A DNA stretch of 64,000 bases from Oxalobacteraceae bacterium (lineage in GTDB: Bacteria > Pseudomonadota > Gammaproteobacteria > Burkholderiales > Burkholderiaceae_D). The notes below the pieces were generated by a model. The model was given only the letters and a program-made list of their open reading frames with translations, was not told the origin of the DNA and ran no database searches. A program made the position numbers and the translations under genes. This document shows, piece by piece, positions 30,832 through 40,582 of this stretch; within the stretch, counting starts at the first letter, position 1, and every line of letters begins with the position of its first letter. The stretch spans positions 1-64,000 of the forward strand of contig JAIXXN010000073.1 of the NCBI GenBank assembly GCA_027490725.1. The letters run 5' to 3'.

Positions 30832-30868
30832 GGGACGTAACGATATTTTTTTAATATCGTTACGTCCC
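30832..30868. repeat. 16-base perfect palindrome with T5 loop
   Basis: GGGACGTAACGATATT at 30832-30847 and its exact complement at 30853-30868 flank TTTTT. It lies 18 bases beyond the stop of the yfcC-like gene and upstream of argH. On the plus strand it is followed by TATTTGTTT, on the minus strand by a C-rich then mixed tail, so it is not a classic terminator for the permease. It may still stop transcription, stabilise an mRNA end or bind a protein. Confidence 0.7.
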
Positions 30869-30886: not shown

Positions 30887-32284
30887 TTATTGCCAGTTCA
30901 TCAGGCAGGGCGGGACCAGTACGGCCAGTGCCAGCACCGCGTAGATCAGTTGCAATGGGATCATCCATTTAGCCCAGGTGATCCAGGGGATGCGTGCCAG
31001 TGCCAGCACGCCGACGGTGATGCCCGAGGTGGGAATCATCGGGGTGCTCAGTTCACCGAGCTGGAAGGCCAGAATCGCGGTCTGGCGGGTCACGCCGACC
31101 AGATCGGCCAGCGGCGCCATGATCGGCATGGTCAGGGCGGCCTGACCGCTGCCGGAGTGGATGAAGAAGTTGATGACGGTCTGGATGCCGAACATTTTCC
31201 ATGCGGCGAACACCGGCATCGAGGACTGCACCAGCGGCATCAGGGTGTGCAACATGGTGTCGATGATGTGGGCGTCGCGTGCCAGGATCATGGTGCCGCG
31301 CGCCAGTGCAATCACCAGCGCCGTGCCGACCAGATCGCGGGCACCCTGTATGAAGCTTTCCACGATCTGGGTCGAATCGAGTTTGCCGACCAGACCAATG
31401 ACGACTGCCATCACCAGGAACAGGGCGGCGATTTCGTCGATGTACCAGTCGTAGCCGACCACACCACCGACCATGATCGCCAGCGAGCTGACAAAAATCG
31501 CCAGCACCAGTTTGTGGCGGCCGGTGATGCCGTGGAATTCACCCAGTCCGTGCGGCTGCTCGCGGCGTTTTTCCAGATCGAGCGCATAGGTAGGGCTCAG
31601 ACGCGGATTTTTTTTCACGCGCGCCGCATACCACATCAGGAAGCCGATCGTGATGGCGGTCGCGATCACCCAGACGATCAGGCGGTAGCCCCAGCCGGAA
31701 AAAATCGGCACACCGGCAATCCCTTGTGCGATGCCGACGTTGAACGGGTTGAGGAAGGCGGCACCAAAGCCGACCTGCGAGCCAAGGAAGGGAATCGAGA
31801 CGCCGGTGATGGTGTCATAGCCGAGTGCCAGTGCCAGCGGCACGAAAATCAGGATGAAGGGGATCGCTTCTTCGTTCATGCCGAAGGTGGCGCCGCCGAT
31901 CGAGAACATGGTGACAAAGACGGGAATCAGGGCTTTCTGGATGAATACCGAGCTGTCGTGGGCGCGTGCCAGTGCCTTGATCATGGCATCCACGGCTTCG
32001 GTTTTCTGCAGCACCGCGAAGGCGCCACCGACGATCAGCACGAAGCCGATAATCAGTGCCGCTTCGACAAAGCCTTTGATCGGCGCTTTGATCAGTGCGG
32101 CCAGCCCTTGCGGCGCGCTGGCCACGTAATGGAAGCTGGCCGGGTCGATCAGCTGTTTGCCGTTGACCAGATGGGTGTCGTATTTACCGCCCGGGACCAG
32201 CCAGGTTGCCGCAGCAATCAGTGCCAGAATCATGAACAGCAGAACGAAGGTATGCGGCAGTTTGAATTTTTTCGGAGTGGTCAT
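30887..32284 (-). CDS. YfcC-family permease (basic amino acid / dipeptide carrier candidate)
   Basis: The 465-residue membrane protein has about 12 helices and YfcC/DcuC-type (IT superfamily) features: HTFVLLFMILALIAAATWLVPGG at the N-terminus, GMNEEAIPFILIFVPLALALGYD, SQVGFGAAFLNPFNVGIAQ and FFIHSGSGQAALTMPIMAPLAD. Relatives are proposed to carry arginine or related cationic solutes. It lies 27 bases after the zinc peptidase gene, so the two are an operon. Given its neighbours, beta-Asp-Arg or its products are good candidate cargos; this is inference. Confidence 0.82.
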   Translation of the reverse strand: MTTPKKFKLPHTFVLLFMILALIAAATWLVPGGKYDTHLVNGKQLIDPASFHYVASAPQGLAALIKAPIKGFVEAALIIGFVLIVGGAFAVLQKTEAVDAMIKALARAHDSSVFIQKALIPVFVTMFSIGGATFGMNEEAIPFILIFVPLALALGYDTITGVSIPFLGSQVGFGAAFLNPFNVGIAQGIAGVPIFSGWGYRLIVWVIATAITIGFLMWYAARVKKNPRLSPTYALDLEKRREQPHGLGEFHGITGRHKLVLAIFVSSLAIMVGGVVGYDWYIDEIAALFLVMAVVIGLVGKLDSTQIVESFIQGARDLVGTALVIALARGTMILARDAHIIDTMLHTLMPLVQSSMPVFAAWKMFGIQTVINFFIHSGSGQAALTMPIMAPLADLVGVTRQTAILAFQLGELSTPMIPTSGITVGVLALARIPWITWAKWMIPLQLIYAVLALAVLVPPCLMNWQ

Positions 32285-32311
32285 GGGCTGGCTTCTGGGT
32301 GGCTGTCGGGA

Positions 32312-33451
32312 TTACTGGCTGAGCAAGTCGCCGGCGCGGTAAGCCTGCGCGCCAGCGATTTTGCCGATGTTCATACCGCGAATCACGTGCCGGTGGGCGC
32401 TGCGGGCAAAGAAAATGCCGGCCACGCTGGCACGGATCACGGTGGTGTCGCCGCTGACCGGATCAATGATGTCGGCAATCGCGTCGCCGGCAGCGATATG
32501 CTCGCCCAGCTCGCGGCTGTAGACCAGAATTCCCGGATGCGGTGCGTACAGCGGCTCGACGCCTTCCAGCGGGGTAGCGGCGCAGAGTGGCGCAGGCAGC
32601 ACGCGCGCGGCCGCTTCGCCATCTGCATCAACTGCTGTCACGATGCCGCGCAGGGTGAGGAATTGCAGCAGACCGGCAGCATCGCGCTGCGCCAGTGCAT
32701 ACGTCACTTCCTGTTCGCCGCGCAGTTCCACGGTGGTGGACAGGCAGGCGGCCGGAATCGGGTAACGTCCGCCGAAGTGCTGCTCGAGATCCCACCACAG
32801 GCGGCTGCAGGCTTCGTCGAACGGTTCGCCGCCTGCCTGATAAGCTAGCAGCACGGCATGCGCGCCCATGATGGCCGCCAGCGGGGCGACGGCTTCGGCC
32901 AGCGGGGTGCCGGCGTAGATGTGCAGCGCCGCTTCGTTATCGCAGTGCAGATCAAGCACGATGTCGGCGTCGACGGCTAGCGTCATCAGGATTTTTTTCA
33001 GCGCATCCGCGTCGGTGGCCGGCTGCCAGGCGGCGATCGAGTCGCGCGCGTGGGCACGGATCAGCGTAACGTTGGCGTCGGCGTCGTCGCCCAGCAGGCC
33101 AGTCAGCGAACTTTTCAGATCCTCGGCGACGTGCTTGTAGGAGCGATTGAAGTTGATGCCGGTGGTCAGATCAAATCGGCCGAATGCGGCGCCGTGGATG
33201 GCTTGCGCCAGTCCGATCGGGTTGGCCGCAGGGACCAGTATCACTTCGCCCTGCAGGCGTCCGGCCGCTTCCAGCGCCAGTAATTCCTTGCGCAGAAATT
33301 GCGCCACCAGCATACCGGGCACTTCGTCAGCGTGCAGGGAAGCTTGTATATACACTTTTTTGCCGCTGCCCGGGCTGCCGAAATGGAGGCTGGTTAGCTG
33401 GTAATGGGCATTGCTGTGCGCGCCGGAGATGGGGTGTTGATGTACTTGCAT
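32312..33451 (-). CDS. AstE/AspA-type zinc peptidase, likely beta-Asp-Arg dipeptidase (CphZ/AotO-like)
   Basis: The 379-residue cytosolic protein belongs to the succinylglutamate desuccinylase/aspartoacylase branch of M14. The zinc ligands are visible: H40-x-x-E43 in SLHADEVPG and H169 in DLHCDNEA. A carboxylate-binding FNRS lies at 101-104 and a likely catalytic Glu in TTVELRGE (about 242). The C-terminal part is a biotinyl-lipoyl-like barrel (about 290-379). Pseudomonas AotO, shown to be the cyanophycin dipeptide hydrolase CphZ, belongs to this group, and the flanking cyanophycinase and uptake genes favour that role. The assignment within the family is inferred. Confidence 0.75.
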   Translation of the reverse strand: MQVHQHPISGAHSNAHYQLTSLHFGSPGSGKKVYIQASLHADEVPGMLVAQFLRKELLALEAAGRLQGEVILVPAANPIGLAQAIHGAAFGRFDLTTGINFNRSYKHVAEDLKSSLTGLLGDDADANVTLIRAHARDSIAAWQPATDADALKKILMTLAVDADIVLDLHCDNEAALHIYAGTPLAEAVAPLAAIMGAHAVLLAYQAGGEPFDEACSRLWWDLEQHFGGRYPIPAACLSTTVELRGEQEVTYALAQRDAAGLLQFLTLRGIVTAVDADGEAAARVLPAPLCAATPLEGVEPLYAPHPGILVYSRELGEHIAAGDAIADIIDPVSGDTTVIRASVAGIFFARSAHRHVIRGMNIGKIAGAQAYRAGDLLSQ

Positions 33452-33608
33452 AATGGCCGGAGATGGTTCGACAAAGATTGAGTATGTAGCACTATTTTCA
33501 CAAAGTAAATCACCATATGCGGAAAGCGTCCATGCTTCCTTGAGTTTTAGGCATGATGTGCGTACAGTTAGCTCAATGTAATCGTTTCTTCAACTACGAG
33601 AGAAAAAC
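33452..33608. promoter_or_regulatory. Divergent promoter region of the putative cyanophycin-use locus
   Basis: The 157 bases between the two divergent operons are AT-richer than the genes. On the plus strand TTGAGT (33540-33545), 17 bases, TACAGT (33563-33568) is a fair sigma-70 match upstream of the TonB receptor. GAGAGAAAAAC gives the ribosome site. No clear operator was identified. A shared control site for both arms is plausible. Confidence 0.4.
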
Positions 33609-36365
33609 ATGGGTGCAGCTCAGAATATGCGGGTTTCGAATATGGCGCGGGCAGTCCGGCTGGCGCTGGGTGTGGGGGCCGTGCTTGGCCTGATGTCGCA
33701 GGAAGCACTGGCGCAGAGCGCCGTGGTGAGTGCGGTGACCATGCCGAAGGTGGAAATTACCGGTTCGGCGATCCGCCGTATCGAATCCGAAACGGCGTTG
33801 CCGGTGCAGGTGATCACCCGCGAAGAGATCGACAAAGCCGGGGTCACTACCGCTTCCGAACTGCTGGCGCGCGTGGCTGCCAACACCGGCGGTCTGACCG
33901 ATGGTGCCAGTATCAATGTGGGCGGCGACCAGCGCGGCTTCAATAGCGCCAACTTGCGCGGGATCGGTACTTCTTCTACGCTGGTGCTGTTGAATGGCCG
34001 TCGCATGGCCAACTTCGCCTCGCCCGGCGATGATACCGGGGTGGACCTGAACAATATCCCTGCTGCCGCGATCCAGCGCGTGGAAGTGCTGCTCGATGGC
34101 GCGTCTGCGCTATACGGCACGGATGCTATCGGTGGTGTCATCAACTTCATCACCCGCAAGGATTTCCAGGGCCTGGAACTGAACGTCTACGGTAACAAGA
34201 CCCAGGAAGGTGGCGCCGGTAAGCGCACCGCCAGCCTGAGTGTCGGCCACGGCGATCTGGGACGTGACGGTTACAACGTGTTTGCTGTGGTAGACCTGCA
34301 GCGCACCGGTGCGCTGAATACTTCGCAGCGCAAGTTCATCGATGATCTGCATATCGCCGAACGCCTGCCGCACCTGCTGTCCGGCTATACCAGCCCGGCC
34401 AATATCCGTCTAACCGGCGCCCAGCGTGACTACCTGCAGGAGCAGGGCTTCACCATCAACGGCAAGCCGATTACCAATCGCACCATCAATCTGTCGCAGC
34501 CCGGCTGCGCGCCAGCGGCCAATCTGTATCTGCCCAACGGCACCGGCGGGATCGATGCCTGCACCTATAACTACATGGGTGACACCGAGCTGTATCCGAA
34601 GTCGGACAAGGCCAATCTGCTGAGCCGCGGTGTGCTGCAACTGAATAGCGATAACCAGCTGTTTGCCGAAGTGGCGCTGAGCCGCTCGAAGACCCACTAC
34701 GTCGGTTCCTCGGCGCGGGTGACGGCGGCGATCAACTACAAGCGTATCCCCGGCCTCGCCAAATATGACCTGAGTTCGGAAGCGGCCAGCGCCGATGATG
34801 ATGTGGTGGGCGATGTGACGCTGCGTATGCGCGTCAACGAAGCCGGTCGCCGCACCAGTGAGCTGACCAGCGAGAGCCAGCGCATCGTGCTGGGCCTGAC
34901 CGGTAGCGCCAACGGCTGGGACTATGATGTGGGCCTGAACCACAGCGTCAACACCATCAAGGACAAAGACACCCACGGCTATGTGCTGTACGACAAACTG
35001 CTGCAGGGTGTATACGACGGCCTGATTAACCCGTTCGGCCCATCCAGTGCTGCCGGTGTAGCGCTGCTCGATTCGATCCAGGTGAATGACGATGTGCGCC
35101 ACGCCCGTGGTGTAATGGATTCGGTCGACTTCAAGGTATCGCATGCACTGGGCGCGCTCGGTGGTGGTGATGCGGCGCTGGCGGTTGGCGGCGAAGTGCG
35201 TCACGAACGCACTGATTTCACCCCATCGGCACTGCTGATGAGCGATAACATTAACAATGACGCCGCACCGGAAGGTGGCCGCGCCACCAGTGACAAGCGC
35301 AGCGTGCAGGCGATCTACGGCGAATTACTGCTGCCGTTCACCAAGCAGCTGGAAGCACAGATCTCAGCCCGTTACGACCACTATCAGGTGGTGGGTGGTG
35401 CGGCCAGCCCGAAAGTGGGTCTGAGCTATACCCCGTCCAAGACCATGCTGTTCCGCGCTTCGGCCGGACGCGGTTTCCGCGCACCGTCGATGTCGGATCT
35501 GTTCCGCCCGACCGTGTATAGCAGTACCGCGACCCTGCCGGATCCGGTCTATTGCGCCACGGTGGATAACAACTTCGCCGATTGCGCCGATAACTGGAGC
35601 ACCCGCCGCTACTCGAATGCGCAGTTGAAGCCTGAACACAGCCGTCAGTACTCGCTGGGGATGGTGCTGGAACCGGTCAAGAACGCCACCCTGTCGCTCG
35701 ATTACTGGAACATCAAGCGCACCGACCTGATTAGCGAGCTCGGTGACGACGTGATTCTGGGGAATCTGGCCAAGTACGGCGATCTGGTGCACCGCGATGA
35801 AGATGGCCTGATCGACTATATCGAACTGCGTAAGGAAAACCGTGGTGCGCAGATCGCATCCGGGCTGGATCTGACCATCGACTACCGTGGCGTGCAGACG
35901 GCGCTGGGACGTTTTGGCGGCCACCTGTCGGGCACTTATGTCATGCAATCGAAAATCCAGAACAGCGTGGGCGATGCTTACCTGAGTAATCTGGGTCGCT
36001 TCGTTACCGACGGTGTCGTGCAGCGCTGGCGCCATACGATTACCTTCGACTGGGATAAAGGTCCATTCTCGGCCAGCCTGTCGAACACCTATTCGAGTGG
36101 TTATGTCGACCAGAACTCGGCGATCAATATCGACGATGGCTCGGTGGTGGCCGCCAATCGCGTGAAGGCCTACTCGCTGTGGGATATGTCGGGGAGCTGG
36201 CAGGTTAGCAAGGCGCTGAAACTGCGTGCCGGTGTGCAGAACCTGCTCGATACCGCGCCACCGTATTCGAATCAGGCCTTCTTCTTCATCTCTGGCTATG
36301 ATCCGACTTACACCGATCCGCGTGGCCGTCGCTTCTTTGGCACGCTGAATTACGCATTTAAGTAA
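33609..36365 (+). CDS. TonB-dependent outer-membrane receptor
   Basis: The 918-residue protein has a signal peptide ending near EALAQ, a plug domain (MPKVEITGSAIRRIESE ... LRGIGTSSTLVLLNGRRM) and a 22-strand barrel ending GRRFFGTLNYAFK with the terminal aromatic residue. It would import a substrate over the outer membrane using TonB. It has no extra N-terminal signalling domain. Neighbours are two secreted cyanophycinase-like enzymes and, divergently, a zinc dipeptidase and permease, so the cargo may be a cyanophycin dipeptide or oligomer. This is a contextual inference. Confidence 0.92.
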   Translation: MGAAQNMRVSNMARAVRLALGVGAVLGLMSQEALAQSAVVSAVTMPKVEITGSAIRRIESETALPVQVITREEIDKAGVTTASELLARVAANTGGLTDGASINVGGDQRGFNSANLRGIGTSSTLVLLNGRRMANFASPGDDTGVDLNNIPAAAIQRVEVLLDGASALYGTDAIGGVINFITRKDFQGLELNVYGNKTQEGGAGKRTASLSVGHGDLGRDGYNVFAVVDLQRTGALNTSQRKFIDDLHIAERLPHLLSGYTSPANIRLTGAQRDYLQEQGFTINGKPITNRTINLSQPGCAPAANLYLPNGTGGIDACTYNYMGDTELYPKSDKANLLSRGVLQLNSDNQLFAEVALSRSKTHYVGSSARVTAAINYKRIPGLAKYDLSSEAASADDDVVGDVTLRMRVNEAGRRTSELTSESQRIVLGLTGSANGWDYDVGLNHSVNTIKDKDTHGYVLYDKLLQGVYDGLINPFGPSSAAGVALLDSIQVNDDVRHARGVMDSVDFKVSHALGALGGGDAALAVGGEVRHERTDFTPSALLMSDNINNDAAPEGGRATSDKRSVQAIYGELLLPFTKQLEAQISARYDHYQVVGGAASPKVGLSYTPSKTMLFRASAGRGFRAPSMSDLFRPTVYSSTATLPDPVYCATVDNNFADCADNWSTRRYSNAQLKPEHSRQYSLGMVLEPVKNATLSLDYWNIKRTDLISELGDDVILGNLAKYGDLVHRDEDGLIDYIELRKENRGAQIASGLDLTIDYRGVQTALGRFGGHLSGTYVMQSKIQNSVGDAYLSNLGRFVTDGVVQRWRHTITFDWDKGPFSASLSNTYSSGYVDQNSAINIDDGSVVAANRVKAYSLWDMSGSWQVSKALKLRAGVQNLLDTAPPYSNQAFFFISGYDPTYTDPRGRRFFGTLNYAFK

Positions 36366-36408
36366 GCGAACGTAATGATGCATTAAGCCAGACTTGCCAA
36401 TTGATTGG

Positions 36409-36457
36409 TATGATCTGCGCTACGACGGCGCCGCGCGTGAGTGTGGCGCCGGTTTTT
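36409..36457 (+). terminator. Terminator-like hairpin before the first cyanophycinase gene
   Basis: CGGCGCC (36426-36432) and GGCGCCG (36445-36451) form a 7-base stem with a 12-base loop, followed by TTTTT (36453-36457). The T tract ends 14 bases before the ATG. An extended -10-like TGGTATGAT ends at 36414, so the hairpin might also sit at the 5' end of a new transcript. It would separate the gene from the TonB receptor. Confidence 0.55.
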
Positions 36458-36471
36458 CTCGGAAGGGCAAC

Positions 36472-37794
36472 ATGAAATTCACAGGTTTTACGCTACTGCG
36501 CGTTGTCATGCTCTGGCTGCTGCTGATCAGCGGTACCAGCGTATGTGCGGCGCAGGTAGCAGCCAGCACGCCGGCGGGCAAGGTGCAGCAAGCACCGGGT
36601 CGCTCCAGCAAGCCGGCCAAAGCCGTGCCGCCGCCCAAACCGGTACTGGCGCCACCGGCAGGGAATCTGGTGATCATCGGCGGCGGTCTGCGCGCCGACA
36701 ATGCCGAAGTCTGGCAACGTATCGTACAGTTGGCCGGTGGCAAGGGTGCACGCATCGGCGTGTTTGGCTCGGCCTCGATCAATCCCGAGCAGTCGGCCCA
36801 GAACACCATTAACAAACTCAATCAGTATGGCGCGCAGGCGTTCTTTATTCCGCTCGGTGTGACGCTGCCCAATAGCGACTACCGCAAGGCTGCGGAAGAT
36901 CCGGAAGTAGTGGCGGCGATCCATTCCGCCACCGGTATCTATTTCACTGGTGGTGACCAGGCAAGGATTACCCGTGCGCTGGTGCGCCCGGATGGCAAGC
37001 ACACCGCGGCACTCGACGCGGTATGGGATGTGTATCGCGATGGCGGGGTGGTGGCAGGTTCCAGTGCCGGCGCTGCGATCATGAGTACCACCATGTTCTA
37101 CGACGCCAAGGCGACGCTGGATATGCTCAAGCAGGGCGTCACGGAAGGCAACGAGATCGCGCCGGGACTGGGCTTTATCGGTGATGACGTATTCGTCGAC
37201 CAGCACTTGCTGGTGCGGGGACGCTTTGCCCGCATGATACCGGTGATGCTGAAGAAGGGTTACCAGATCGGTCTGGGGATCGACGAAAACACCGCGATGG
37301 TGGTTAACGCCAAGCGTGACGTCGAAATTATCGGCTACAGTGGCGCGCTGCTGCTGGACCTGTCGGCGGCAATTACGGATCGTGGCATCAAGGGCTTCAA
37401 CATCAGTAACGCCACCATCAGCTATCTGGACCGGGGCGATAAATTCAATCTGGTGACGCGCGAATTCACGCCGTCGCCGGACAAGGCCGATAACAAGCTC
37501 GATCCGAATCAGCCGGAGACCCGCGAGCCGGTGTTTACCAACGATATTCTGGGGAATAACGCGGTGCTCGATCTGATGGTCAATCTGATTGATAACGCCC
37601 AGCAGGAAGCCATCGGTATCGCCTTCGGTAATCCGCGCGATGCGTATCCCGATACCGGCTTCGAATTCCGCTTCAGTAAAACCATCAACAGCGTCGGTTA
37701 CAGCTCGACCGAAGTCGAGGCGTATTCGGTGCTCAAACTGCGCATGGATGTGCGACCTATTCAGCTGCAGCAGCCGCTATACCGCTATCGCTAG
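36472..37794 (+). CDS. Secreted cyanophycinase-like S51 peptidase (copy 1)
   Basis: The 440-residue protein has a signal peptide (to about residue 27), a Pro/Lys-rich linker to about residue 60 and an S51 cyanophycinase domain. The nucleophile is S198 in VVAGSSAGAAI, the GGDQ motif lies at 160-163, and VDQHLLVRGR carries the likely catalytic H245. Cyanophycinases cleave multi-L-arginyl-poly-L-aspartate into beta-Asp-Arg. The signal peptide makes it an extracellular or periplasmic form like CphE. GGAAGG precedes the ATG at 36472. Copy 2 follows in tandem. Confidence 0.88.
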   Translation: MKFTGFTLLRVVMLWLLLISGTSVCAAQVAASTPAGKVQQAPGRSSKPAKAVPPPKPVLAPPAGNLVIIGGGLRADNAEVWQRIVQLAGGKGARIGVFGSASINPEQSAQNTINKLNQYGAQAFFIPLGVTLPNSDYRKAAEDPEVVAAIHSATGIYFTGGDQARITRALVRPDGKHTAALDAVWDVYRDGGVVAGSSAGAAIMSTTMFYDAKATLDMLKQGVTEGNEIAPGLGFIGDDVFVDQHLLVRGRFARMIPVMLKKGYQIGLGIDENTAMVVNAKRDVEIIGYSGALLLDLSAAITDRGIKGFNISNATISYLDRGDKFNLVTREFTPSPDKADNKLDPNQPETREPVFTNDILGNNAVLDLMVNLIDNAQQEAIGIAFGNPRDAYPDTGFEFRFSKTINSVGYSSTEVEAYSVLKLRMDVRPIQLQQPLYRYR

Positions 37795-37812
37795 CGGCCT
37801 GTAAAAATCAGG

Positions 37813-37852
37813 TATATTGAGGGGATGGCGTGTACTGCGCCATCCCTTTTTT
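37813..37852 (+). terminator. Intrinsic terminator / 5' hairpin between the cyanophycinase genes
   Basis: GGGATGGCG, loop TGTACTG, CGCCATCCC (37822-37846 region) form a perfect 9-base stem, followed by TTTTTT to 37852. It is a good terminator for copy 1. A -10-like TATATT lies at 37813-37818, so a new transcript could begin with this hairpin. The ribosome site GGAGG of copy 2 follows within ten bases. Confidence 0.75.
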
Positions 37853-37868
37853 ACTTGCGGAGGCCGGA

Positions 37869-39101
37869 ATGCGCAGCGCAGTCAAATGGATGCACCGAGT
37901 GTTGCAGGCAGCACTGCTGCTGAGCGTACCGTTCGGTGCCGCGCAGGCCATCACGACGGCGCCCAAGGGTTCGCTGGTGATCATCGGCGGGAATCTACAG
38001 GCCGATAATGCCGAAGTCTGGCAGCGCATCGTGCAACTGGCCGGCGGTCCGGGCGCGCGGCTGGCCGTGCTGCCATCGGCGGCGGCCGATCCGGGGCCGG
38101 TGGGTGCGGCCATTGTGGCGCGTTTCCGTGAATATGGCGCCGATGCGTTTCTGGTGCCGCTGGCAGTAAAACTGGCTGATAGCGATTACCGGCAGGTGGC
38201 GGAAGACCCGCAACTGGCCGATGCGGTGCGCGGCGCAGGCGGCGTATTTTTCGCCGGAGGCGATCAGGCGCGCATTACGCAGGCGCTGGTGCGCGCCGAC
38301 GGTAGCCGCAGTGCGGTGCTCGATGCCGTTTGGGAGCTGTACCGCAACGGCGGCGTGGTCGCGGGCAGTAGTGCTGGTGCTGCCATCATGAGCAGCACCA
38401 TGTTCTATGCGCCGAATACGGTGTTTTCCACTTTGCGTCTGGGCGTTACGGAAGGGCGCGAGATCGCGCCCGGTCTGGGCTTTATCGGTGACGACGTGTT
38501 TGTCGACCAGCACCTGCTGGTGCGTGGCCGCTTTGCCCGCATGATTCCGGCAATGCTGAAAAAAGGCTATAAGTTCGGTCTCGGGATCGACGAGAACACG
38601 GCGATGGTGATCGATCAGCACCGGCAGGTGGAAATCGTCGGCCGGCGCGGGGCGCTGCTGATCGACTTGCGGCGCGCCACCACGGACGATAGTCATGGCG
38701 GCTTTAATGTCGCCAATGCCGTGATCAGCTATCTGGACAAGGGCGACCGTTACGATCTGTCCAGTCATACCTTTATTCCATCGCAGGCCAAGGCCGCTGG
38801 CAAAATCGATCGGCGTGCCGCGCAGATGGCGCAGCCGGTATTTTCTGCCGATATCCTGGCGCGCAATGCGCTAGTCGCGCTGATGGAAAACCTGATGAAT
38901 AACCGTCGCAGTGAGGCGATCGGGATTGCTACCAGCGGACGCAATACCCCGCTGCCGGAACTAGGCTTCCAGTTCACCTTCAGCAAAACCCGCGATAGCG
39001 TCGGTTACGCGTCGGCAGCGCTGGACAGCTATTCGATCCTGAATATGCGGCTCGATATCCGCCCGCTCGATATCGGCCAGTCGCTGACCCGCAAGAACTA
39101 G
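37869..39101 (+). CDS. Secreted cyanophycinase-like S51 peptidase (copy 2)
   Basis: The 410-residue protein is a close paralogue of the previous one. It has a signal peptide ending FGAAQA, then the S51 domain directly, without the Pro/Lys linker of copy 1. S168 is in VVAGSSAGAAI, the GGDQ motif lies at about 130-133, and H215 is in VDQHLLVRGR. The paralogue pair shares LGFIGDDVFVDQHLLVRGRF exactly. The ATG at 37869 is preceded by GGAGG. Different linkers and loop sequences may mean different locations or chain-length preference. Confidence 0.87.
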   Translation: MRSAVKWMHRVLQAALLLSVPFGAAQAITTAPKGSLVIIGGNLQADNAEVWQRIVQLAGGPGARLAVLPSAAADPGPVGAAIVARFREYGADAFLVPLAVKLADSDYRQVAEDPQLADAVRGAGGVFFAGGDQARITQALVRADGSRSAVLDAVWELYRNGGVVAGSSAGAAIMSSTMFYAPNTVFSTLRLGVTEGREIAPGLGFIGDDVFVDQHLLVRGRFARMIPAMLKKGYKFGLGIDENTAMVIDQHRQVEIVGRRGALLIDLRRATTDDSHGGFNVANAVISYLDKGDRYDLSSHTFIPSQAKAAGKIDRRAAQMAQPVFSADILARNALVALMENLMNNRRSEAIGIATSGRNTPLPELGFQFTFSKTRDSVGYASAALDSYSILNMRLDIRPLDIGQSLTRKN

Positions 39102-39166
39102 CCGTTTCGTTGCGCGGTAGGCGCGATTACAATGGCGAGCATCGTGAACCGAACTTCGGGAGTTGC

Positions 39167-40582
39167 ATGAACCGCTACGTATCCTTTCTGCTGGCAGTCC
39201 TCGCTGTCTGCACCACTCTGCCTGCGCTTGCCGCACAACCGGCCACCGTGCGGGTCGATTATCTGCACAGCGGGAATGCGCTGAACGAGAGTTACGCGCT
39301 AGAGCGCGTGGTGATCGAGCCCTTGCCATGGCCGGGCGATATGCGCCGTACCATCGACGAAACCAACCGTGGCAATAATATGCTCGAAGTGGTGGATAGC
39401 AAGACTGGCGAATTGCTGTATTCGCGTGGTTTCTCCACCATCTTTGCGGAATGGCGCAGCACCGAAGAAGCCATGCATGCGAATCGCGGTTTTCAGGAGT
39501 CGGTGCGGTTTCCCAAGCCGGATCGTCCGGTGCGGGTGCGGATTCTGAAACGTGACGACCGCAATGCCTTCTCGGTGGTGTGGACTGCGGAAATCGATAG
39601 CGATGCGATGGACGTGGTGCGCAAGCTGCCCGCTGCACCAGTGAAGCCGATCGCGATCCGCGTCAATGGCCCGTCCGCACAGAAAGTCGATCTGCTGATC
39701 GTCGGGGACGGCTATACCAGCGCAGAAATGCCGAAGTTCGAAGCGAGTGCCCGCAAGCTGGCTGATCATCTGTTTGCAACTTCGCCATTCAAGGAACGCG
39801 CCAGCGACTTCAATGTATGGGCGCTGGCTTTACCGACGGCGGAATCCGGCGTATCGCGCCCCTCGACGGGTGTGCACCACGCTTCGCCACTGGGGACGCG
39901 TTACGATATTTTCGGCAGTGAGCGGTATGTGCTGACCACCGATAACCGCGCCCTGCGCGAACTGGCGCAGTACGCGCCGTACGAGTTCATCGAGATTCTG
40001 GTGAATAACGAGACTTACGGTGGTGGCGGCATCTTTGGCCAGTTTAGTACCGCGGCGGCGAATAACGACTGGGCTAACTATTTGTTCGTGCACGAATTCG
40101 GCCATCACTTCGCCGGTCTGGCCGATGAATACTATACCTCGCCGGTAGCCTATCAATCGGGTACGGCGCGGCCGGAACCGTGGGAACCGAATGCGACCGC
40201 TTTGCGCGATCCGGCACAGCTGAAGTGGAAAAAGTTTGTCGCCGCTGCTACGCCGCTGCCGACGCCATGGCCGAAAGCGGCCTACGAAACTGCAGCACGC
40301 GACTTCCAGAAAGAGCGGGCGGCGTTGCGCGCGGCGCAGCGGCCCGAGTCGGAAATGAGTGCCTTGTTCAGCAAGGATCTGCGCGAGAGCACGGCCATGT
40401 TCAGCCGCGATCCGCAGTTCCATGCGGTGGGGGCGTTCGAAGGAGCGAACTACGAAGCGAGTGGTTACTATCGCCCGCAGGTGCAGTGCATTATGTTTGA
40501 TCGCAGCGAGAAGTTCTGCGCCGTATGCGCCGATGCGATCAGCACCATTATTGACCTGTATTCGCGGCCGCCAGCCCGGTAG
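39167..40582 (+). CDS. Secreted M64-family metallopeptidase
   Basis: The 471-residue protein has a signal peptide ending LPALAA, an N-terminal beta domain (about 25-155) and a catalytic domain of the IgA-peptidase M64 family. The zinc motif is HEFGH at 309-313 within VHEFGHHFAGLADEYY; the core motif DLLIVGDGYT is at about 175-184. The ATG at 39167 is preceded by GGGAG. It follows the second cyanophycinase by 65 bases. It may digest protein or act on peptide material exposed by the other enzymes; the substrate is unknown. Confidence 0.83.
   Translation: MNRYVSFLLAVLAVCTTLPALAAQPATVRVDYLHSGNALNESYALERVVIEPLPWPGDMRRTIDETNRGNNMLEVVDSKTGELLYSRGFSTIFAEWRSTEEAMHANRGFQESVRFPKPDRPVRVRILKRDDRNAFSVVWTAEIDSDAMDVVRKLPAAPVKPIAIRVNGPSAQKVDLLIVGDGYTSAEMPKFEASARKLADHLFATSPFKERASDFNVWALALPTAESGVSRPSTGVHHASPLGTRYDIFGSERYVLTTDNRALRELAQYAPYEFIEILVNNETYGGGGIFGQFSTAAANNDWANYLFVHEFGHHFAGLADEYYTSPVAYQSGTARPEPWEPNATALRDPAQLKWKKFVAAATPLPTPWPKAAYETAARDFQKERAALRAAQRPESEMSALFSKDLRESTAMFSRDPQFHAVGAFEGANYEASGYYRPQVQCIMFDRSEKFCAVCADAISTIIDLYSRPPAR

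Follow-up and report, generated by a model that had tools for sequence, protein, structure and literature searches.

It has been proposed that bacteria can make use of cyanophycin found outside their own cells (PMC7564069, PMC6243061), and several elements of such a system are already in print. Extracellular cyanophycinases of the CphE type are known from Pseudomonas anguilliseptica BI and P. alcaligenes DIP1 (PMC3235067), and scavenging loci have been described in genomes without the cyanophycin synthetase gene cphA (PMC10206079, which also names the CphE reference sequence Q8KQN8). The same paper reports the specificity of the CphZ family for beta-aspartyl-arginine (beta-Asp-Arg) or beta-aspartyl-lysine and covers a locus for cyanophycin utilisation in strain L21-Spi-D4 (Ben Hania et al.). 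In Citromicrobium sp. JLT1363, a TonB-dependent receptor gene near a cyanophycinase gene led to the proposal of cyanophycin as its substrate (PMC3400609). Here we describe a locus of an Oxalobacteraceae bacterium that is a relative of Duganella (GenBank assembly GCA_027490725.1, contig JAIXXN010000073.1), analysed within a stretch of 64,000 nucleotides that is referred to below as the window. Six genes lie side by side at positions 30,887 to 40,582, as a preliminary description had it, with all open reading frames open and every product above its own Pfam cut-off, and the locus is, in our judgement, quite likely a cyanophycin utilisation module. At the level of sequence this reading rests on enzyme families, catalytic residues, export-like N-termini and conserved linkage, all of which are observed, while the site of cleavage and the regulation of the module are put forward as proposals.

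Compared with these systems, the two S51 enzymes of the window share with CphE, according to the available text of PMC3235067, the S51-type serine peptidase family, a Sec signal, a length of about 420-440 residues and the Ser-His-Glu set, and they differ from its published description in having Gln where it has Thr before the catalytic His and in occurring as two tandem copies. The L21-Spi-D4 locus, in the form in which PMC10206079 presents it, likewise unites a cyanophycinase, an isoaspartyl dipeptidase and a transporter, whereas the window has CphZ instead of IadA, a TonB receptor, and cphA elsewhere in its genome; clustering of cyanophycinase, dipeptidase and transporter, as in non-producer scavenging loci, is therefore found here, but the absence of cphA is not. 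Receptor and cyanophycinase also lie close together in Citromicrobium, although CphZ and a permease go unmentioned in the accessible part of that paper, and the set of the window is fuller and conserved in many genomes. The kind of system is thus largely known; what we have not met in print is the full assembly of CphE, receptor, permease and CphZ, a second copy of it with arginine catabolism, and, in this sample, its restriction to cphA-positive genomes. Within the Oxalobacteraceae literature covered by the search, outside which most subscription journals lay, no report of scavenging and no paper on the full set was recognised; the available text of PMC5690324 mentions a cyanophycin synthase and a cyanophycinase in Janthinobacterium svalbardensis, and that of PMC12661447 and PMC10687191 holds nothing further on uptake.

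In the proposed route, the two Sec-exported CphE-type serine peptidases would cut cyanophycin to beta-Asp-Arg in the periplasm or outside the cell, passage of polymer pieces or dipeptides through the outer membrane would be the task of the TonB-dependent receptor, and passage of the dipeptide through the inner membrane that of the YfcC-like permease; in the cytosol, CphZ would then split the dipeptide into Asp and Arg. The polymer may be cut in the periplasm once the receptor has imported it, or else outside the cell, in which case the dipeptide would diffuse freely; related loci without a receptor suggest that outside cutting is possible or that another receptor serves. For Duganella, Janthinobacterium, Massilia and their kin, this amounts to a complete candidate route by which cyanophycin from beyond the cytoplasm could be used, with carriers proposed for both membrane steps.

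The first step is assigned to S51 a (36,394-37,794, plus strand) and S51 b (37,830-39,101, plus strand), which are 58% identical and score 38.6 and 32.7 bits with the S51 Pfam model and 147.0 and 143.2 bits with the curated cyanophycinase model TIGR02069 (cut-off 126.6). Both keep the catalytic Ser, His and Glu (S198, H245 and E272 in S51 a; S181, H228 and E255 in S51 b). Moreover, Q163, S198, D243-Q-H245, R249, R251, R254 and E272 of S51 a are the same in all 29 aligned CphE-like rows, which were hand-picked from 103 (99 in related loci plus the four of this genome), and the Gln, Ser, Asp-Gln-His, three Arg and Glu are all kept in the Synechocystis cyanophycinase 3en0. These correspond to CphB residues 101, 132, 172-174, 178, 180, 183 and 201, numbers that agree with the 3en0 chain numbering once a 20-residue offset is removed. 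Across the wider set of 99 CphE-like rows, every row has the Gln and Asp-Gln-His-Arg motifs, 97 have the Glu motif, and a narrowly defined Ser motif fits 84, the other 15 differing just at the residue preceding Ser. An AlphaFold2 model of S51 a (mean predicted local distance difference test score 85.4) had pseudo-CphB 7uqv as its first match, followed by 7uqw and 3en0, with peptidase E further down.

Signal-like N-termini, in line with the secretion that the preliminary description ascribed to the S51 enzymes, were found for all four S51 proteins of this genome and for 97 of the 99 CphE-like rows of the related loci, against 1 of 18 scored CphB-like rows (19 control loci, one without a motif), by a crude home-made rule combining charge, hydrophobic core and cleavage site that was tuned on these same data. 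The rule was adjusted twice and two S51 pieces of at most 300 residues were dropped before counting; its first version was positive for 76 of 97 scored CphE-like rows (two without a motif) and 1 of 9 scored controls (ten loci without a motif), and its second for 98 of 99 and 1 of 18, but the latter could count the first strand of the domain itself. By eye, the signal-peptide-like N-termini in the translations begin downstream of the longest-frame starts, so that starts near 36,472 for S51 a, at 37,869-37,890 for S51 b and near 39,167 for the M64 peptidase are probably the likelier ones. A type II secretin is encoded in the genome (623.9 bits, cut-off 351.35), and type II secretion has been suggested for the release of CphE in the available text of PMC3235067. 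Taken together, both S51 enzymes are very probably exported CphE-type cyanophycinases, with cleavage of cyanophycin as their predicted activity.

The last step is assigned to the gene at 32,312-33,451 on the minus strand, an AstE/AspA-type zinc peptidase (Pfam AstE_AspA_cat, 54.5 bits) whose likeness to CphZ had been noticed from its motifs and is borne out by comparison with solved structures. Its nearest solved relatives are 8ein and 8eip (269.7 and 267 bits, 39-40% identity), titled in the PDB as CphZ of Acinetobacter baylyi and, for the E251A mutant, a complex; a model of the window protein superposes on 8ein with a template modelling score of 0.91 at 39% identity. The residue mutated in 8eip, the position at which the 8ein and 8eip sequences differ, aligns with E242 of the window enzyme. 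The catalytic Glu is kept, and H40, E43, H169 and E242 are invariant in 16 of 16 aligned rows, the first three being the proposed zinc ligands. No signal peptide was seen in this protein and the export rule was negative for it. The corresponding enzyme of pseudomonads is AotO; in Pseudomonas an aot ATP-binding cassette (ABC) operon carries out the inner-membrane step, whereas the window gene is linked to a YfcC-like permease and a TonB receptor. Two CphZ-type genes are present in the genome. IadA and IaaA were considered as alternative dipeptidases and set aside, since the genome holds no IadA above cut-off (four weak matches lie below it) and no match to the IaaA family, which leaves CphZ as the sole type present among the three hydrolase types sought. 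The window enzyme is thus very probably a cytosolic CphZ-type cyanophycin dipeptide hydrolase, its specificity being predicted.

Between these enzymes stand the two proposed carriers. The permease gene (30,887-32,284, minus strand) had been called YfcC-type; its membership of the DcuC family holds (343.7 bits), but the YfcC equivalog model is reached with only 377.2 bits against a cut-off of 500, and the protein is best named a YfcC-like member of that family, for which import of beta-Asp-Arg across the inner membrane is proposed. The receptor gene, tbdr (33,609-36,365, plus strand; barrel 157.4 and plug 85.2 bits in Pfam), would import cyanophycin pieces; its nearest paralogue in the genome, 50% identical, lies in the second cyanophycin locus described below, and the next reaches 34%. 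Hints to its substrate were sought among solved structures and discarded, as the matches, which lie over the plug region, are confined to receptors for colicin I, siderophores, B12, heme and ferric citrate and to one unnamed TonB-linked receptor.

That these genes form one pathway had been deduced from their divergent layout, and a survey of related genomes supports the linkage of S51, CphZ, the YfcC-like permease and, in most loci, the TonB receptor. Among 80 loci, the best 80 of 177 CphZ loci by CphZ similarity, S51 a is present in 74, yfcC in 72, argH in 63, tbdr and the M64 gene in 58 each, an RpiR-type regulator gene in 31 and S51 b in 27; of the 69 loci seen in full, 65 have S51 a, 63 yfcC, 53 tbdr and 52 M64. 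In every one of the 72 loci with yfcC, this gene follows cphZ directly among the searched genes and lies on the same strand. A gene order that breaks down in close relatives had been named beforehand as evidence against a joint pathway, and the order was found to be kept; since the same arrangement recurs in related genomes, it is not due to chance. A plasmid search returned only distant cyanophycinases, with at most 35.6% identity among the 12 of 20 records listed.

A diverged second set lies on contig 37 of the same genome and comprises a yfcC-like gene, tbdr, an S51 gene, an M20 peptidase gene, a CphZ paralogue (53%), an AraC-type regulator gene, an enolase-family gene scoring as o-succinylbenzoate synthase and an arginine/ornithine succinyltransferase gene, whose product passes the arginine/ornithine subfamily cut-off and misses that of the AstA equivalog. 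The presence of an arginine-catabolic enzyme in the same gene run supports arginine as a product of the route. Within this locus (L015:2138-13808), the enolase-family protein, the M20 peptidase, which has a signal-like N-terminus, and the AstA-type succinyltransferase stand together in a trio that resembles the N-succinylamino acid racemase pathways turning D- into L-amino acids.

Several observations weigh against a cyanophycin module. The PDB entry closest to S51 a in both sequence and fold is titled pseudo-CphB and keeps the same residues, so that the residues alone do not prove cyanophycinase activity; a paper on pseudo-CphB was looked for in the literature and none was found. The window S51 enzymes have Gln before the catalytic His, as CphB does, where CphEal of Pseudomonas has Thr. 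The functions of S51 and CphZ are predicted from sequence and models, and the export evidence depends on the self-adjusted rule described above. The receptor is missing from 12 of the 65 full-view S51-bearing loci and is hence not indispensable, and 9 of 42 strong and 15 of 15 weaker CphZ matches have no CphE-like gene within 12 kilobases (kb) on the contig. We nevertheless regard a cyanophycin utilisation module as the best account, and the question that then arises is whose polymer it serves.

The preliminary description had taken the lack of cphA in the window as fitting the use of polymer made by others, and had advised a whole-genome check. This check overturned the argument: cphA is encoded elsewhere in the genome (980.1 bits, cut-off 850), together with a cphA-like partner of 721 residues (675.8 bits) that covers the model just to position 719 of 862 and passes the cyanophycin synthetase subfamily model NF010623 (973.6 bits, cut-off 877), and a strict scavenger of foreign polymer for want of cphA is accordingly rejected. 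As the cell carries cphA, its own polymer is a possible source, and kin or dead cells could supply the substrate too, as could other species. The genes may mainly recycle cyanophycin of the cell or its kin, released by lysis or exported, rather than feed on other species, a possibility compatible with the module that we entertain only tentatively. It draws support from the genes beside the cphA pair, where one product passes the model of a 'cyanophycin metabolism-associated ABC transporter' (1410.7 bits, cut-off 880), an exporter-type protein, and another is a DUF1854 protein (231 bits, cut-off 150), and from the fact that all four S51 proteins look exported, with none in the CphB-type score range.

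Co-occurrence was counted in 145 genomes of the family, with cphA-family genes accepted at E up to 1e-100, strong CphZ defined as above 350 bits plus the fragment in G052, CphE-like genes as over cut-off but below 200 bits and CphB-like genes as at least 200 bits; the strong-CphZ and CphE-like thresholds were set after the scores were known, and ten TIGR02069 rows under cut-off (one in G044) did not enter the counts. CphZ at E up to 1e-40 occurs in 51 genomes, strong CphZ in 36, CphE-like genes in 39 and CphB-like genes in 19. CphE-like and strong CphZ genes occur together in 35 genomes, strong CphZ alone in 1, CphE alone in 4 and neither in 105, an association for which the Fisher test ignores shared ancestry. 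A CphE-like gene lies within 12 kb of 33 of the 42 strong CphZ matches and of none of the 15 weak ones, and a CphB-like gene within 12 kb of none of the 57. All 39 CphE-bearing genomes have cphA, against 70 of the 106 others, which would suit recycling of own polymer, and 20 genomes combine cphA, CphE and strong CphZ with no CphB-like gene; shared ancestry may, however, explain the co-occurrence of cphA and CphE, and export of the polymer is a supposition. Moreover, of the 109 genomes with cphA, 68 lack any CphB- or CphE-like gene above cut-off, so that the absence of CphB is ordinary here and argues little for recycling. Since the sampled carriers of the route also have cphA, the question shifts from who scavenges to whether a store is shared or recycled. 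A still bolder idea, that cyanophycin is an extracellular or envelope-associated shared nitrogen store in these Oxalobacteraceae, made by cphA and its partner, exported by the ABC-type protein and recovered by CphE, receptor, permease and CphZ, strikes us as decidedly unlikely; if true, it would imply a full cycle of production, export and recovery instead of scavenging from cyanobacteria.

In the cphA region of contig 58 (L097:3617-11424), the partner of cphA is C-terminally shortened and its nucleotide-binding motif appears altered when read by eye. DUF1854 and cphA each occur in 109 of the 145 genomes, in nearly the same set when the lists are compared by eye. About 2.5 kb from cphA lies a gene for a cytosolic-type M14 carboxypeptidase (L097:13958-15082), which may be a candidate enzyme for breaking down cyanophycin inside the cell where CphB is not found.

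A different substrate was also considered, namely that other isopeptides or beta-aspartyl peptides, derived from damaged proteins or further natural products, are what the module serves and cyanophycin is a minor substrate. The S51 fold also includes peptidase E, the top PDB match is pseudo-CphB and an M64 peptidase is encoded next door, all of which would suit such a role, but the TIGR02069 scores of all four S51 proteins, which are above cut-off, the arginine/ornithine succinyltransferase in the second locus and the presence of cphA in every CphE-bearing genome speak for cyanophycin and make this alternative unlikely. That the genes are merely inherited together around argH and parC with no joint function is very improbable, because, although an argH neighbourhood is common to 63 of the 80 loci and M64 behaves in this manner, all ten S51-bearing loci in which neither argH nor parC is in view keep cphZ, yfcC, tbdr and S51 (at least one, L017, is a short contig and possibly an argH locus cut off), the Undibacterium locus L093 keeps the full set in another order, a second copy exists on contig 37, and seven genomes carry CphZ and CphE-like genes nowhere within 12 kb of each other.

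The part of the supposed pathway that did not stand is the M64 peptidase (39,110-40,582, plus strand; Pfam M64 419.9 bits), predicted to be secreted from its signal-like N-terminus. Its gene mostly follows the argH-parC neighbourhood, being present in 55 of the 64 loci where S51 is accompanied by a visible argH or parC and in 3 of the 10 where it is not, at least one of these three being the short contig L017, and it is therefore better viewed as a neighbour than as a core member. Membership of argH in the operon was likewise rejected: it lies on the same strand as yfcC, yet a strong 16-base-pair hairpin (30,832-30,868, minus strand; -25.2 kcal/mol, z -7.43 against 200 shuffles), a putative terminator, separates the two, and the module is also kept in loci with no argH in view.

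Between the divergent cphZ and tbdr lies an intergenic region of 157 base pairs (33,452-33,608), whose alignment over 29 regions (the window and 28 relatives) shows strongly conserved blocks shared by at least 90% of them, which may be putative promoters or operators. In 30 of the 31 loci that carry the RpiR-type regulator gene, it is the next searched gene before cphZ, and four of four examples scanned have SIS and rpiR-family helix-turn-helix domains; it is missing from the window locus, and the rest of the genome holds no close copy, the best match reaching 26% identity. The intergenic blocks are well conserved here although this regulator is missing. In Rugamonas aquatica (L022:47-4343), a second receptor, 47% identical to that of the window, directly adjoins a window-type locus, and a relative of the contig-37 enolase-family gene is also beside it. 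Finally, the fourth S51 gene of the genome, on contig 1 (L016:8428-9798), encodes a protein with a signal-like N-terminus that is 55% identical to S51 a, and it is divergent from an amino-acid permease gene (AA_permease, 419 bits).

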